This document shows, piece after piece, positions 57,697-64,000 of a stretch of DNA of 64,000 bases. The position numbers and the translations under genes are program-made. How positions within the stretch are numbered: position 1 is the stretch's first letter; the number at the start of each line of letters is the position of its first letter. The stretch spans positions 372,001 through 436,000 of the forward strand of contig NZ_LMOP01000001.1 of assembly GCF_001423585.1 (NCBI RefSeq), written 5' to 3'. This DNA comes from Xanthomonas sp. Leaf148 (lineage in GTDB: Bacteria; Pseudomonadota; Gammaproteobacteria; Xanthomonadales; Xanthomonadaceae). The notes beneath the pieces are model-generated. The model searched no databases, had not been told where the DNA came from, and saw only the letters and a program-made list of their open reading frames with translations.

Positions 57697-59838
57697 ATGC
57701 GCCCCACGCTTCTTGTCACCGCGCTGACCGCTGCGCTCGCCCTGCCCTCGCCATCCGCTTTCGCTCAGCACACCAGCACCTCGCCTGCGGTCACCGAACT
57801 GGATGGCGTCAACGTGGTCGGTCGGGCGCAGACGTTATACAAATCCGACGATGCAGCGGTCGCCACGCGCACCGACACGCCACTGGCGCTGGTGCCGCAA
57901 TCGGTGCAGGTGCTGCCGCGCGAGTTGATCGACGACCAGGCCGCGCGCCAGATCACCGATCTGTATCGCAGCATCAGCGGCATCAGTTTCTTCAGCTACG
58001 CGGGCGTTACCTTGCGCGGGTTCCGACAGGAAAACGTGCTGTATGACGGTCTGCGTGGCGATCCGTATGCCGGTTTTTCGGTGCCGCAGCTGTTCAACAT
58101 CGAACGCGTGGAAGTGCTCAAGGGTCCGGCCGGTGCGTTGTATGGCGGCGGCGAACCCGGCGGCGTCATCAACTACGTCACCCGCAAGCCTGCGCACCAG
58201 GCGCAGCGGCGGGTGGAGCTGCAGCTGGGCAATCAATCGTTCGGCGCAGCGTCGTTCGAAGCCACCGGCCCGGCGCGCGAAGACGGCCGCATCCGCTATC
58301 GCATCGGCGCCTATGCCGATGGCGAGGATGGCTTTCGCTGGAACACCGATAGCCAGAGCCAGATCGGCGATGCCTCGGTGGCCTTCGATGTCGGCGACAC
58401 CGGCGAGCTCACCTTGCAATACACCGATATCACCCAGAACCTGGGCGGCAATCGCCTGCGCGGCGTGCCGGTCGATGACGACGGCAGCTTCCTCACCGAC
58501 CGTCGCTGGAACCACAACGAGCCCACCGATTTTCTCGACATGCGCGCCAAGGTCGCCTTCGCGCAGTATCGGTTTGCGCCCTCCAGTGCGTGGGATGTGG
58601 ATATGGCACTGCGCTGGTTCAAAAACGATGAGCATCAGATCTATCACGAGCCGATGGGCTTGATCGACCGCGATCGCGACGGCACCGCCGAGTGGATGAC
58701 GCGGCAGTTACGCAACCAGTACCGCGACAACGATGCCATTTCCAGCAACGTCAATGCGGTGTTCCGCACCAGCACCGGCGCCATCGCACACAAGCTGCTG
58801 ATGGGCGCCGATTACTATCGCCTGGATGCCGATTTCCGTGCGCAAACGGCCAATACCGCAGATAGCGGACGCGTGCGCGGGCCGGTGCCGGGCATCGACT
58901 TGTTCAACCCGGTCTACGGGCGTAGCGGCTTTTACGATTACGGCCTGGACACGCTGCCCTGGCGTGCCACCAGCACGCGTAGCCTGCGCTACGGCGCGTA
59001 TCTGCAGGACGAACTGACGTTGACCCCACGCTGGTATGCGATGGCCGGACTGCGCTGGGATGGCTTCAAGGACGACAACCTGCTGGATGGCTCGCGCATC
59101 ACCGGCAACGACCTCAGCTGGCGCGTGGGCAGCACCTTCGTGCTGCGCGATGGCGTCAATGCCTATGCGAGTTACGCCAGCGGGTTTGTGCCGCAGGACG
59201 CGGCAAATCAGGATGCGAGCGTCGGCGGGCCGTTCGACCCGGAGCGCAGCAAACAATGGGAGCTTGGCCTGAAGACCGCGCTCAACGATGGCGGGCTGAC
59301 GCTCAATACCGCGCTGTATCGCATCGAGCGCAGCAACATCGTGCAGGCCAACGGCAGCGTCGTCGATGGCGTCAACCAACTCTCTGCGCTGGGCCTGGTG
59401 CGCAGCGAAGGGCTGGAGGTCGATCTGCTGGCCGATCTGACCCAGCGCTGGGTGCTCAACCTGACCTACGCCTACAACGATGCGCGCGTGCTCGATGCCG
59501 GTAGCGACGGCATCACCAATGCATCGGGCGATCGCTTCGCCAACGCACCGCGTAACACGCTCGGGCTGTGGACCCGCTACGACTTGCCGGCCTGGCGCTC
59601 GGCGGTAGCCTTCGGCGCCGACTACGTGGGCGAGCGCGTCAGCCTGGACGGCCAGCGCGTCAAGCCGTACGCCATCTACGACATCAGCTGGCAGACGCAG
59701 TGGGATGCGTGGAAGCTGCAGATCAACGTCAAGAATCTATTCGACAAGGTGTACGCGATGAGCGGCTTCAATGCGCGTGGCGGGCACTTTCCGGGCGAGC
59801 CGCGACGCATCTATGCGCAGTTGGCCTATACCTTCTGA
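57697..59838 (+). CDS. TonB-dependent ferric-siderophore receptor
   Basis: This 713-residue outer-membrane receptor has a signal peptide (LLVTALTAALALPSPSAFA) and a plug domain at about 45-170 with VPQSVQVLPRELIDDQ and VEVLKGPAGALYGGGEPGG. A 22-stranded barrel follows, ending in the terminal aromatic of AQLAYTF. The plug motifs match the FhuE/FpvA-type siderophore subgroup. A Fur box overlaps the promoter, which supports iron uptake. No transcriptional coupling to a biosynthetic or periplasmic transport gene is seen in the window. Confidence 0.94.
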   Translation: MRPTLLVTALTAALALPSPSAFAQHTSTSPAVTELDGVNVVGRAQTLYKSDDAAVATRTDTPLALVPQSVQVLPRELIDDQAARQITDLYRSISGISFFSYAGVTLRGFRQENVLYDGLRGDPYAGFSVPQLFNIERVEVLKGPAGALYGGGEPGGVINYVTRKPAHQAQRRVELQLGNQSFGAASFEATGPAREDGRIRYRIGAYADGEDGFRWNTDSQSQIGDASVAFDVGDTGELTLQYTDITQNLGGNRLRGVPVDDDGSFLTDRRWNHNEPTDFLDMRAKVAFAQYRFAPSSAWDVDMALRWFKNDEHQIYHEPMGLIDRDRDGTAEWMTRQLRNQYRDNDAISSNVNAVFRTSTGAIAHKLLMGADYYRLDADFRAQTANTADSGRVRGPVPGIDLFNPVYGRSGFYDYGLDTLPWRATSTRSLRYGAYLQDELTLTPRWYAMAGLRWDGFKDDNLLDGSRITGNDLSWRVGSTFVLRDGVNAYASYASGFVPQDAANQDASVGGPFDPERSKQWELGLKTALNDGGLTLNTALYRIERSNIVQANGSVVDGVNQLSALGLVRSEGLEVDLLADLTQRWVLNLTYAYNDARVLDAGSDGITNASGDRFANAPRNTLGLWTRYDLPAWRSAVAFGADYVGERVSLDGQRVKPYAIYDISWQTQWDAWKLQINVKNLFDKVYAMSGFNARGGHFPGEPRRIYAQLAYTF

Positions 59839-60138: not shown

Positions 60139-61191
60139 ATGCCTCAGCTTGCCCGCTCCGTTTCCGCCCTGTTGCCCCTGGTGTTTGCAGCCGCCTGCTC
60201 GGCCGCACCACCGGCTAAATCCGGCCCACCCGACGCGCCTGTCGCCAGCTGCACCGCCAAGGTGAAGCCGGGGCAGGATCTGCAAAAGGCCATCGATAAA
60301 CTGCCGCAAGGCGATACGCCGTCGGTGTTGTGCCTGGAAAAAGGCGAATTTCCGCTGCGTGGGCTGGTCTCGATCCACCGCGGCAACCTGACCTTGCGCG
60401 GCAAAGGCCCAAGCACGGTGTTGCGTATGGCCGATGGCGTGCAGCAACCGGCACTGGTGGTGGGCGACTACGAAAATCAGCAGCCAACCGGCGTGATCCG
60501 CAATGTCAGCATCGAAGACATGCAGATCGTTGCCAGCACCGGCGACAAGGAATTCATGCCCGAGCGCCCGTACCTGAGCAACAGCGCAGTGGTGGTGCGC
60601 TCCGGCCAAGGCATTCGCCTGGCTGGGTTGCAGGTCAACAAGTGCCGTAGCGCCTGTCTGTTGAGCGAATACGACACGCGCGAGATCACCATCGAAAACA
60701 ACGATGTGTCTGGCGCGATCTGGGACGGTGTGTCGTTCAACCGCACCGCCAAGGTGACCATGGTCAACAACTACATCCACGACAACGTGGCGGCCGGGTT
60801 GACCACCGAACATCTGGAAGACAGCGAGATCCGCAACAACCGCTTCGAGCGTAACGGCAGCCAGGGCATCTATCTGTCCGATGCGCGGCGCAACCGCTTC
60901 AGCAACAACGTGTTCGATGGCAACAAGGTGGCCGGCGTGTTCCTGGCCTGCGCCATCCGCTATCGCACGCCGGAAATCCTGTGCTGGGACAACAGCATGA
61001 GTCAGGACAACGTGTTCGAGAACAACCGCTTCTCCAATACGCCGTTCACCTACACCATCGGTGTGGACCGTGCCGCCAACTGCACCGCGGCCGACTTCAA
61101 GCCCAACCTGTGGCGCAACAACCAGGCCGATGTGGCCGGTGTGGATATCGAGCCGCAGCGCTACGGCTATTGCGTGCGCCACGAGCAATAA
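60139..61191 (+). CDS. Exported right-handed parallel beta-helix protein
   Basis: This 350-residue protein has an N-terminal signal ending in FAAACSA, possibly a lipobox. A series of beta-helix coils follows at about residues 85-310, recognisable from repeats such as ITIENNDVSGAIWDGVSF, VTMVNNYIHDNVAAG and SEIRNNRFERNGSQG. The fold is shared by pectate lyases, NosD and alginate epimerases. No lyase active site is obvious to me, so carbohydrate binding or processing in the periplasm is an inference only. It converges with asnB. Confidence 0.83.
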   Translation: MPQLARSVSALLPLVFAAACSAAPPAKSGPPDAPVASCTAKVKPGQDLQKAIDKLPQGDTPSVLCLEKGEFPLRGLVSIHRGNLTLRGKGPSTVLRMADGVQQPALVVGDYENQQPTGVIRNVSIEDMQIVASTGDKEFMPERPYLSNSAVVVRSGQGIRLAGLQVNKCRSACLLSEYDTREITIENNDVSGAIWDGVSFNRTAKVTMVNNYIHDNVAAGLTTEHLEDSEIRNNRFERNGSQGIYLSDARRNRFSNNVFDGNKVAGVFLACAIRYRTPEILCWDNSMSQDNVFENNRFSNTPFTYTIGVDRAANCTAADFKPNLWRNNQADVAGVDIEPQRYGYCVRHEQ

Positions 61192-61257: not shown

Positions 61258-62952
61258 TTATGAGGCCAGTGCCTGTTCGTGCACGCCGGCGATCGCACGG
61301 CCCGACGGGTCGGCCATCGCGGCAAAACTCGCATCCCAGGCAATCGCGGTCGGCGACGAGCACGCAATCGACTTGCCGCCCGGCACCGTTTCTGCCGCCG
61401 CCTGGCTCGGGAAAAACTGCTCGAACAGGCTGCGATAGAAATACGCTTCCTTGGTCTGCGGCGGGTTGACCGGAAAACGCCGGTCGGCCGCAGCCAGCTC
61501 GCGGTCGCTCACATGCGCGGCGGCATGCGCCTTGAGCCCATCGATCCAGCCGTAGCCCACGCCATCGCTGAACTGCTCTTTCTGCCGCCACAGGATCGAT
61601 TCCGGCAGATAACCGGCGAACGCTTCGCGCAGCACGCCCTTTTCCATACGCGTGGCGCCGGTGCTGGTCTTGTCGATCATCTTGAAGCTGGCATCCATGC
61701 GCATGGCCACATCCAGGAACTCGCGGTCCAGGAACGGCACGCGTGGCTCAACGCCCCAAGCCATCATCGACTTGTTGGCGCGCAGGCAATCGAAGTTGTT
61801 GAGTGCATCCAGCTTACGTACCAATTCCTCATGGAATTCGCGCGCGTTCGGTGCCTTGTGGAAATACAAATAGCCGCCAAAGATTTCGTCGCTGCCTTCG
61901 CCAGACAGCACCATCTTGACGCCCATCGCCTTTATGCGCCGCGCCAGCAGAAACATCGGCGTGGACGCGCGAATGGTGGTGACGTCGTAGGTTTCGATGT
62001 GGCGGATCACTTCAGGCAACGCGTCCAGGCCTTCTTCGAAAGTGTATTCGAACCCGTGGTGCACGGTGCCCAGCGCTGCGGCGGCCACTTCTGCAGCGGC
62101 AAGATCGGGCGAGCCTTTCAGGCCGATCGCGAACGAATGCAGCCGCGGCCACCACGCTTCGGTGGTGTCGTTTTCTTCGATGCGATGCCGTGCATAGCGC
62201 GCGGCGACGGCTGCAACCAACGACGAATCCAGGCCGCCCGAGAGCAACACGCCGTATGGCACGTCGGTCATCAACTGACGATGCACCGCCCGCTCGAAGG
62301 CTTCGCGCAATTCCTGCAGTTGCACCTGCACGCCTTCCACTTCGCCGTATTCGCGCCAGGCGCGTTCGTAGTAGCGGCTCAATGCGCCGGTGGCGCTGTC
62401 GTACCAATGGCCCGGCGGAAACTGTGCGGCATCGGCGCAATCGTCCACCAACGATTTCAGCTCGGAGGCCACGCGCAGGCGGCCTTCGCGATCGTGGCCC
62501 CAGTACAGCGGCACCACGCCGATCGGGTCGCGCGCAATGATCACGCGCCCGGCCGCCTTGTCCCACAGTGCGAACGCAAAGATGCCGTTGAGGCGGTTGA
62601 GATACGAGGCCGGTGCATCTTCGCGATACAGCGCGTTGATCACCTCGCAATCGGAACCGGTCTGGAAGGCGTACGGCTGCTGCAGCTCCTGCTTGAGTTC
62701 GCGATGGTTATAGATTTCGCCATTCACCGCCAAGGCCAGCTGCCCATCTTCGGAGAGCAAGGGCTGCGAGCCGCCAGCCGGGTCGACGATGGCCAGCCGC
62801 TCGTGCACCAGGATTGCGCCGGTGTCGACATACACGCCGCTCCAGTCCGGACCGCGATGCCGCTGCCGCTGCGAACATTCCAGCGCCTGCCGGCGCAGGG
62901 CCTGCAGATCGTCGCCGGGTTGCAGGCCGAAAATGCCGAAGATGGAACACAT
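61258..62952 (-). CDS. asnB: Asparagine synthetase B (glutamine-hydrolysing)
   Basis: This 564-residue enzyme converts aspartate, glutamine and ATP to asparagine and glutamate. The ATG at 62952 exposes Cys2 (MCSIFGIFG). The glutaminase domain runs to about residue 190 with LNGIFAFALWDK. The synthetase PP-loop is SGGLDSS (238-244), followed by LSGEGSDEIFGGYLYFHKAP, as in E. coli AsnB. AGGAG lies 8 bases before the ATG. A leader peptide with six Asn codons and an overlapping terminator/antiterminator lie at 63175-63023, so transcription is probably attenuated in response to charged tRNA-Asn. It lies downstream of dapE on the same strand. Confidence 0.95.
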   Translation of the reverse strand: MCSIFGIFGLQPGDDLQALRRQALECSQRQRHRGPDWSGVYVDTGAILVHERLAIVDPAGGSQPLLSEDGQLALAVNGEIYNHRELKQELQQPYAFQTGSDCEVINALYREDAPASYLNRLNGIFAFALWDKAAGRVIIARDPIGVVPLYWGHDREGRLRVASELKSLVDDCADAAQFPPGHWYDSATGALSRYYERAWREYGEVEGVQVQLQELREAFERAVHRQLMTDVPYGVLLSGGLDSSLVAAVAARYARHRIEENDTTEAWWPRLHSFAIGLKGSPDLAAAEVAAAALGTVHHGFEYTFEEGLDALPEVIRHIETYDVTTIRASTPMFLLARRIKAMGVKMVLSGEGSDEIFGGYLYFHKAPNAREFHEELVRKLDALNNFDCLRANKSMMAWGVEPRVPFLDREFLDVAMRMDASFKMIDKTSTGATRMEKGVLREAFAGYLPESILWRQKEQFSDGVGYGWIDGLKAHAAAHVSDRELAAADRRFPVNPPQTKEAYFYRSLFEQFFPSQAAAETVPGGKSIACSSPTAIAWDASFAAMADPSGRAIAGVHEQALAS

Positions 62953-63022
62953 GGAAACACTCCTGATCAAACTGCGGGGATGGATGACCGATGGACGAGC
63001 ATGCTGCTTGGAAGTGACGCCC

Positions 63023-63055
63023 AAAAAAAAACCCGCATCGGCCGATGCGGGTTTT
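63023..63055 (-). terminator. Attenuator terminator in the asnB leader
   Basis: Reading leftward, a perfectly self-complementary stretch (AAACCCGCATCGG/CCGATGCGGGTTT, 63055-63028) is followed by a run of nine T (A run 63023-63031). It lies 70 nt before the asnB start and about 190 nt after the dapE stop. The 5' arm plus centre can pair instead with the identical-sense segment at 63108-63096 inside the leader peptide frame, giving a 13-bp antiterminator. Confidence 0.9.
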
Positions 63056-63085
63056 CTGATTCCTGGGCGTTTGGATGTACTTCGC

Positions 63086-63175
63086 CTAGTCGCAGACCCG
63101 CATCGGCCGCGCACGATTATTCGCGCGCAGCGTGTTGCGGTTGGCGTTATTAAGCTTGGCGAGGTGGATGACCAT
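63086..63175 (-). CDS. asnB leader peptide (29 codons, six Asn)
   Basis: This short frame, starting at the ATG at 63175 and ending at TAG (63088-63086), lies between dapE and asnB. Asn occupies positions 9, 10, 12, 14, 19 and 20 (LNNANRNTLRANNR), an extreme enrichment for one amino acid in 29 codons. Codons 23-27 carry the antiterminator segment GGCCGATGCGGGT. A ribosome stalled for lack of Asn-tRNA at codons 9-20 leaves this segment free, while one at the stop codon covers it. No strong ribosome binding site is seen; a short or leaderless mRNA start is possible. Confidence 0.82.
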   Translation of the reverse strand: MVIHLAKLNNANRNTLRANNRARPMRVCD

Positions 63176-63182
63176 GTAACCG

Positions 63183-63211
63183 ACGCTAACCGTTCGTTTT
63201 CGCTGGCGCAA
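63183..63211 (-). promoter_or_regulatory. Possible promoter of the asnB leader
   Basis: Leftward TTGCGC (63211-63206) and TAGCGT (63188-63183) are 17 bp apart and would start transcription close to the leader ATG. Both elements are weak matches, so transcription from dapE is an alternative. Confidence 0.25.
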
Positions 63212-63247
63212 CTGTTTCAGCGGCAACGACGGCGACGCAGCGCTTGC

Positions 63248-64000
63248 TCAACCGATCAACAAGCGTTCGACAAGCGTGCGGTACAGCGACGGCAACGCCT
63301 CCAGATCGGCCACGCGCACATGCTCGTCGACTTGGTGGATCGACGCGTTGACCGGGCCGACCTCGATGCATTGCGCGCCCAGCGGCGCGATGAAGCGCGC
63401 ATCGGAGGTGCCACCGCCGGTGCTCTCCTCCGGCGGCGCGCCAGCGAACTGGCCCAACACTTCGCGCGCGACGCTGCGCAGGCGCCCCTCCGGGGTGTAG
63501 AACGGCTCGCCGCTGCGGTGCCAGCGCACGCTGTAATCCAGCGCATGGCGATCCAGCACTGCGGTGATTTCTGCCTCCAGCCGCGGCGCATCCCACTGCG
63601 GGGTGTAACGCAGATTGAAGGCCACCTGCAGCTCGCCGGGGATCACGTTGTTGGCACCGGTGCCGGCATGGATGTTGGAAATCTGCAGACTGGTGGGCGG
63701 GAAACTTTCGAACCCGTCGTCCCAGCGCCGTGCGACCAATTCGGCCAACGCGGGCGCTGCCAGATGGATCGGGTTGCGCGCCTTGTGCGGATACGCCACA
63801 TGGCCCTGCACGCCGTTGACGGTCAGCGTGCCGGACAGGCTACCGCGGCGTCCAACCCGCAGCAGGTCGCCCAGTCGCTCGGTGGACGATGGCTCGCCGG
63901 TGATGCACCAATCGATCGCTTGCCCACGTTCGCGGAACAGATCGGCCACACGCCGCACGCCATCGATGGCATCGCCTTCCTCATCGGAGGTCAACAACAC
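63248..64000 (-). CDS. dapE: Succinyl-diaminopimelate desuccinylase, 3' part (runs off the window)
   Basis: The visible 250 residues are the C-terminal two thirds of an M20-family dizinc amidohydrolase of the lysine/meso-diaminopimelate pathway. They include [13 protein letters not shown] (catalytic Glu), the dimerisation-domain signatures [14 protein letters not shown] and [13 protein letters not shown], and the C-terminal zinc-ligand region [14 protein letters not shown]. The true start and first zinc ligand lie beyond position 64000, and the first visible codon is internal. It is upstream of the asnB leader on the same strand. Confidence 0.93.

Follow-up and report, generated by a model that had tools for sequence, protein, structure and literature searches.

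A predicted leader-peptide attenuator responsive to asparagine upstream of asnB in Xanthomonas and related bacteria

Organization of the asnB locus

The window analysed here is a stretch of 64,000 nucleotides from Xanthomonas sp. Leaf148 (contig NZ_LMOP01000001.1, positions 372,001 to 436,000). On its minus strand we find, in order, a DapE-like gene ending at 63248, a promoter-like pair of hexamers, a 29-codon ORF, an inverted repeat followed by nine T residues, and a gene whose product (P0001) is asparagine synthase B by a match to NF006949 (869 bits; cut-off 499). The initial annotation, made from the letters alone, had called this gene asnB and had placed it 70 nt downstream of an intrinsic terminator; the identity is borne out by the family match, and 70 nt indeed separate the last T from the start at 62952. 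Since the next long ORF past asnB (60139-61191) lies on the opposite strand, asnB is probably transcribed alone. This 350-aa ORF, convergent with asnB, looks by eye like a secreted parallel beta-helix protein, and a further convergent ORF on the plus strand (57697-59838; 713 aa) looks by eye like a TonB-dependent receptor.

The small ORF had been described as having asparagine at codons 9, 10, 12, 14, 19 and 20, and the terminator as a perfect one with nine T; both descriptions hold in coordinates and content, and the terminator arms form a perfect inverted repeat (Table 1). A segment within codons 23-27 of the ORF, said to repeat the centre and 3' half of the terminator over 13 nt, is present and matches in sense, but is 14 nt long; it is perfectly complementary to a segment that includes most of the terminator 5' arm. 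In predicted folds, Asn codons 19-20 form the loop of a further hairpin within the ORF, and the 181-nt region as a whole folds 5.45 standard deviations below dinucleotide shuffles, with none of 200 shuffles as low. A generic scan for terminators and promoters listed neither the asnB-proximal terminator nor a sigma-70 promoter at the leader: the former probably because A-T and G-T pairs extend the counted stem into the T-tract, and the latter probably because the hexamers match the consensus at three of six positions each and the scan needs four. The first reading of the leader and terminator ahead of asnB, as a putative transcription attenuator, is supported by the sequence comparisons described below.

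Table 1. Features of the predicted attenuator and of asnB, in window coordinates
Feature	Coordinates	Strand	Basis
Predicted -35 box of the leader promoter, TTGCGC	63206..63211	-	motif in the alignment of relatives
Predicted -10 box, TAGCGT, ending 7 nt before the leader ATG	63183..63188	-	motif in relatives
Leader peptide ORF, 29 codons plus TAG, encoding MVIHLAKLNNANRNTLRANNRARPMRVCD	63086..63175	-	sequence; conservation
Leader Asn codons 9 and 10; 12; 14; 19 and 20	63151-63146; 63142-63140; 63136-63134; 63121-63116	-	
Candidate strand 1:2 pause hairpin, CTGCGCGCG-AATAAT-CGTGCGCGG	63107..63130	-	folding; putative function
Strand 2, 5' strand of the predicted antiterminator, CGGCCGATGCGGGT (leader codons 23-27)	63096..63109	-	complementarity; co-variation
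Strand 3 as antiterminator partner, ACCCGCATCGGCCG	63039..63052	-	14 bp, perfect with strand 2
Intrinsic terminator; arms 63055-63042 and 63041-63028, T-tract 63031-63023 (nine T)	63023..63055	-	sequence; folding; conservation
Shine-Dalgarno motif of asnB, AGGAG	62960..62964	-	sequence; SD-like motif before asnB in 53 of 62 representatives
asnB, asparagine synthase B (glutamine-hydrolysing), 564 aa, predicted regulated gene	61258..62952	-	family match

An asparagine-rich ORF ahead of asnB

To analyse the leader we used a set of 129 loci (several genomes appear twice), comprising 122 unique segments and 62 representatives that are at most 0.90 alike. The set was picked after inspection, leaving out those loci in which no Asn leader was evident (L088-L110, L112-L151, L167, L177, L192, and L194 onward except L212 and L218); the enrichment and co-variation tests therefore describe leader-bearing loci, and the unselected figures are the presence counts, which use all loci examined. 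Taking the best 12-residue stretch in any short ORF within the 300 nt before asnB, we obtained a mean Asn count of 5.71 across the 62 representatives versus 1.15 in dinucleotide shuffles (z ~72), and five or more Asn in 12 residues were reached by 50 of the 62 versus none of 1240 shuffles. The residues next in line, Ala and Met, stand at z ~7.5, with at least five Ala in 28 of 62 representatives versus 11% of shuffles. Among 101 dropped loci used as controls (one of which, L130, is from the same genome, G056, as the leader-bearing L039), a single locus has five or more Asn in 12 residues and four have at least four. Five loci of the leader set have just three Asn in their best 12 residues (L059 and its identical twin L163, L086, L170 and L212). 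The upstream short ORF thus combines repeated codons for the very amino acid that the downstream gene product makes with conservation across relatives.

The conservation is one of residues rather than bases: the two Asn codons are used almost equally (AAC 210, AAT 181), and in the 32 same-genus leaders of 29 codons (31 genomes, L001 and L040 being the same) residues 12, 19 and 20 are always Asn, with AAC and AAT exchanging at residues 12 and 19. This bears on the possibility that the region is a T-box or some other RNA that binds tRNA-Asn or asparagine directly, without translation. T-boxes for Asn are known in front of asparagine genes in Firmicutes, but here the conserved features are codons, no T-box match was obtained in window positions 62700-63400 at E<=10, and no Rfam family reached its gathering score in six relatives; we accord such an RNA practically no probability.

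Distribution of the leader

A 361-nt query from the window, searched against 61 genomes, matched 39 of them, including all 35 of the genus (own genome counted). An upstream ORF with at least four Asn is present at all 39 asnB loci first taken, which were chosen by DNA match; at three of these, from families f2 and f12, the leader region hardly aligns and the Asn-rich ORF is still there. In an order-wide sample of 150 genomes, 98 have an asnB of this type, and upstream regions were read in all 53 such genomes from families f1, f2 and f12 and in 39 of the 45 from f9, f7, f5 and f4. By reading of the best short ORFs, the Asn leader occurs in 27 of 28 (f1), 3 of 3 (f2) and 21 of 22 (f12) asnB-bearing genomes, that is 51 of 53, the calls at L059 and L086 being based on just three clustered Asn plus the terminator and strand 2; in f9, f7, f5 and f4 it occurs at one of the 39 loci read. 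The check proposed at the outset, conservation of the Asn codons in relatives that keep asnB, hence came out in favour of the attenuator in three families, of which f12 falls together with Rhodanobacter and Dyella in the AsnB phylogeny. Two loci inside leader-bearing families, L088 and L089, have asnB without the leader.

A search of a named collection recovered the leader in 41 of the best 80 among at least 590 relatives; the genera bearing it among these 80 are Xanthomonas, Stenotrophomonas, Pseudoxanthomonas, Thermomonas, Luteimonas, Lysobacter, Arenimonas, Dyella, Rhodanobacter, Fulvimonas and Frateuria, along with unnamed Lysobacterales. It is missing in the other 39 of the best 80, mostly other Gammaproteobacteria (Shewanella, Colwellia, Vibrio, Pseudoalteromonas and others), with records of other phyla, unplaced Proteobacteria and one Lysobacterales MAG (L220) also among them. 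A phylum-wide sample of 60 asnB genomes yielded no accepted leader among the 21 new gammaproteobacterial loci read. One AT-rich ORF with five Asn, at L133, ends 13 nt before asnB and was judged a chance occurrence. Separately, a similar frame recurs at seven f9 loci (L091-L093, L096, L097, L100 and L104), ending 5-18 nt before asnB (HLTERGIEFRSTMTLKD and alike); it may represent the C-terminal end of a conserved gene that lies upstream and is coupled to asnB.

Among leader-bearing genomes the peptide, the terminator and the upstream gene all diverge, and the Asn-rich leader stays before asnB. A DapE-like gene is found near asnB in just 8 of the 62 representatives, a count that a very diverged DapE would escape; on genomic comparison, the DapE-like gene is outside the predicted regulatory system. 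This is of consequence for the simplest competing explanation, whereby the hairpin, sitting as it does in the window between the DapE-like stop (63248) and asnB, merely terminates the upstream gene and the small ORF is a chance frame. Against it, leader, hairpin and asnB remain together as the upstream gene changes; a chance ORF is at odds with Asn clustering that none of the 1240 shuffles reproduced; the stretch separating the leader from the upstream gene has a promoter motif of fixed spacing; and a plain terminator has no need of strand 2. We consider this explanation highly improbable.

A terminator and a co-varying antiterminator

In the representatives shown, the leader is followed by a stable hairpin that runs into a T-rich tail, placing an intrinsic terminator between leader and asnB; the terminator finder takes the best hairpin and returns one for every locus, and it is the T-rich tails that carry the conviction. 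Over the 122 unique segments, the duplex between strand 2 and the terminator 5' arm lies on average 3.0 standard deviations below shuffles, and is at or below 5 of 100 shuffles in 82% and at or below 1 of 100 in 66%. In the remaining 18% strand 2 complementarity does not go past the 5-in-100 level; L171 and L172 fall there because their last Asn was taken too far downstream.

The antiterminator on the terminator 5' arm also co-varies, as the initial annotation had asked of the alternative hairpins. Across the 62 representatives, strand 2 pairs with its own strand 3 better than in all 10,000 random re-pairings. Within the GGCCCGC-type subset (30 sequences, mostly Rhodanobacteraceae-like) the cognate pairing is likewise unbeaten in 10,000 re-pairings, and within the Xanthomonas/Stenotrophomonas-type subset (19 sequences) 45 of 10,000 equal the true pairing; these comparisons are uncorrected for relatedness. 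A second helix, at the apex, in which the region of the stop codon pairs with the bases ahead of strand 3, co-varies too (for example CGCGTA/TACGCG in L173 and CGTGTA/TACACG in L070), with none of 10,000 re-pairings as good. The most telling case, in our reading of the sequences, is a single-site compensation in L063 and L168, where GGCCTGC in strand 3 is matched by GCAGGCC in strand 2 and strand 4 is still GCGGGCC; the predicted antiterminator pair is kept, and the peptide reads LPQAGD versus LPRAGD in L061.

The same case speaks to a second alternative, namely that the ORF product is an Asn-rich micropeptide with a function of its own, ahead of a terminator that is constitutive or regulated just in part. 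In favour of this are the conservation of the ORF and the ability of leader peptides to work in trans, as with peTrpL of Sinorhizobium meliloti (PMC7298713). However, the peptide varies freely outside the Asn clusters and the strand 2 codons (compare MVIHLAKLNNANRNTLRANNRARPMRVCD, MLRIAANNANTNNARNLGRVGV and MSLQRASNNNRPNASPPRVGD), and its C-terminus tracks RNA pairing, with Arg in L061 versus Gln in L063 and L168; a micropeptide of this kind seems to us very unlikely.

Geometry and folding of the nascent RNA

The initial annotation had also held that the arrangement fits the trp/his model, and the 62 representatives agree: strand 2 starts at a median of 14 nt before the stop codon (IQR 13 to 16.75) and 13 nt after the last Asn codon (IQR 9-16), such that a ribosome at the stop covers strand 2 and one stalled on Asn leaves it free. 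The longest contiguous helix between strands 2 and 3 reaches 7 bp or more in 51 of 62 representatives, shares 5 nt or more with the terminator 5' arm in 55 of 62, and in 38 of 62 comes to an end 7-8 nt short of the leader stop codon. In several Rhodanobacteraceae-like leaders just 7 nt separate the final Asn from strand 2, and earlier Asn codons must therefore act there.

We folded the nascent RNA as far as the end of strand 3, the ribosome being represented by a mask that reaches 14 nt from the A-site codon, counted from its first base. In 51 of 62 representatives, capture of strand 3 by upstream sequence is higher with the ribosome at the last clustered Asn codon than at the stop (mean capture 0.58 and 0.23, respectively), and if the best Asn codon is taken instead, capture exceeds that at the stop by at least 0.2 in 61 of 62, the exception being L062. 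Once strand 4 is included, the terminator prevails at equilibrium whatever the state of the ribosome (mean 0.94 stalled, 0.99 at the stop and 0.91 ribosome-free). In ribosome-free nascent RNA strand 3 capture is 0.59, about that with a stalled ribosome (0.58), yet the full RNA goes to the terminator (0.91). Because the terminator wins at equilibrium in all states and ribosome-free capture is about that in the stalled state, the switch must act kinetically, and folding alone does not predict termination in the untranslated state.

A promoter motif and a probable leaderless start

Upstream of the leader, a TTGC motif, a spacer of 16-18 nt (mostly 17-18) and a -10-like hexamer are found in 58 of 62 representatives. 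The -10 element lies 6 or 7 nt from the ATG in 55 of the 61 representatives with a promoter score of at least 9, and base -1 of the leader ATG is C in 58 of 62. The score was devised after the motif had been seen and picks the best in-frame ATG and spacing, and for this reason its contrast with 173 other ATGs overstates the significance; more weight falls on the fixed spacing and on the C at -1. SD-like motifs occur ahead of the leader in 10 of 62 representatives, as against 53 of 62 for asnB.

The distance between the -10 element and the ATG is that usual for a transcription start, and +1 is therefore expected at the A of the ATG. The start of transcription thus probably coincides with the leader AUG or lies one or two bases away from it, which would make the leader leaderless. 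No transcription start-site map of Xanthomonas was found in the open literature searched. There are parallels for such a start: the rnTrpL RNA of S. meliloti begins with the ATG of trpL (PMC7298713), and several leader ORFs of Streptomyces lividans lack a 5' UTR in a genome-wide start-site map (PMC8079986). The S. meliloti attenuator RNA resembles ours in starting at the ATG of the leader ORF, which the promoter motif predicts for the asnB leader, but it responds to Trp instead of Asn and its 5' end is stated as known (PMC7298713). The S. lividans attenuators share the leaderless transcription of the leader ORF, again predicted here, but belong to an Actinobacterium, and the eight leaders given in PMC8079986 are for Leu (2), Trp (2), Ala, Ile, Met and Thr, with none for Asn.

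Relationship to known attenuation systems

Leader-peptide transcription attenuators of Gram-negative bacteria serve the his, trp, leu, ilv, thr and phe systems. The asnB leader shares with these a short ORF rich in codons for the product amino acid, the strand 1-4 logic, mutually exclusive antiterminator and terminator, and a biosynthetic gene downstream; it differs in the amino acid, asparagine, and in the gene, asnB. The T-box attenuators carried by asparagine genes of Firmicutes have in common with it the signal, uncharged tRNA-Asn, and the kind of target gene, but they bind the tRNA directly and have no leader ORF, and the window is without a T-box match.

The suggestion that no asparagine attenuator had been documented is in keeping with what we found: none is described in the open full-text literature searched, a prediction in subscription papers, such as early comparative surveys, being possible, and in Rfam no family reached its gathering score in window positions 62700-63400 or in the six relatives. 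The matches below threshold included a Thr_leader of 22.7 bits (55 needed) and a Leu_leader of 21 bits (50 needed), both due to the terminator, and, highest of all, ncS011 on the opposite strand at 25.8 bits (48 needed), which we took as chance.

Evolution of the leader and of AsnB

In a FastTree phylogeny of 181 AsnB sequences, one side of a supported branch (SH 99; 106 rows) holds 102 of the 103 rows labelled leader-bearing. The other four rows there are L130, in which the leader is present (same genome, G056, as L039), and L167 (a Holophagales MAG), L177 (Rhodococcus RD6.2) and L192 (a Deltaproteobacteria MAG), whose asnB genes are nested in the leader group without a leader. These last three look like horizontal transfers without the attenuator or misbinned contigs. 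The AsnB proteins of the leader-less loci L088, L089 and L220 lie outside the leader group and are of a more distant type (62-66% identical), which suggests that asnB was replaced together with its control.

The sole leader in f7 (L111/L232) encodes MFAIYNTINTTNNRLLRSAGSF and has its own terminator and a 6-bp strand 2; its AsnB falls elsewhere in the tree, and the promoter pattern of the other leaders was not seen there. L253 represents a second copy, an 86-nt piece of the L111/L232 upstream region that is 81% identical and lies about 270 nt further upstream. G109 is the sole member of its genus in the collection. A second, independent origin of the Asn leader in f7 is plausible and is based on one genome.

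Proposed mechanism and physiological context

The leader, its Asn codons, the mutually exclusive hairpins with their co-variation, the geometry, the promoter motif and the gene content, all read from sequence, lead us to propose, with high confidence, that transcription of asnB is under the control of a ribosome-mediated attenuator of the his/trp type, with charged tRNA-Asn as its signal. We infer its operation, from promoter use and leaderless translation to stalling, termination and read-through, to be as follows. Transcription would start at, or within 1-2 bases of, the leader AUG, and a ribosome would load on the probably leaderless mRNA and trail RNA polymerase. With Asn-tRNA plentiful, the ribosome would reach the stop codon and mask strand 2, leaving strands 3 and 4 to pair and the terminator to end transcription ahead of asnB. 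With Asn-tRNA scarce, it would stall in the clusters of Asn codons with strand 2 exposed; strands 2 and 3 would then pair before strand 4 is made, the terminator would form too late, and asnB would be transcribed.

The gene content of these bacteria is consistent with such a sensor. AsnRS is present in all 48 genomes tested, and GatB was found in none of the 48 and AsnA in none of the 13 genomes tested for it; therefore tRNA-Asn is expected to be charged from free asparagine, either imported or made by AsnB. This is the situation in which sensing charged tRNA-Asn makes sense, for the downstream gene supplies the asparagine on which charging depends.

A further, improbable extension is that a terminated leaderless mRNA of about 150 nt and an Asn-/Arg-rich peptide might act in trans on other asparagine or nitrogen transcripts under Asn-replete growth, in the manner of rnTrpL and peTrpL, which act on other targets in Sinorhizobium. 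If this were true, a wider asparagine response throughout the order would centre on the attenuation of asnB.

Attenuation is a textbook mechanism known for few amino acids, and an asparagine member across several families would extend the list. That the leader may have arisen a second time in a distant family points to such switches being able to evolve repeatedly, and the predicted start at the leader AUG offers a test case for whether a leaderless mRNA can couple a ribosome to RNA polymerase tightly enough for attenuation. The order that carries the leader includes crop pathogens, hospital opportunists and soil bacteria; for these organisms, which from the genes searched seemingly make asparagine by AsnB alone, the predicted switch would be the means by which AsnB expression is set.
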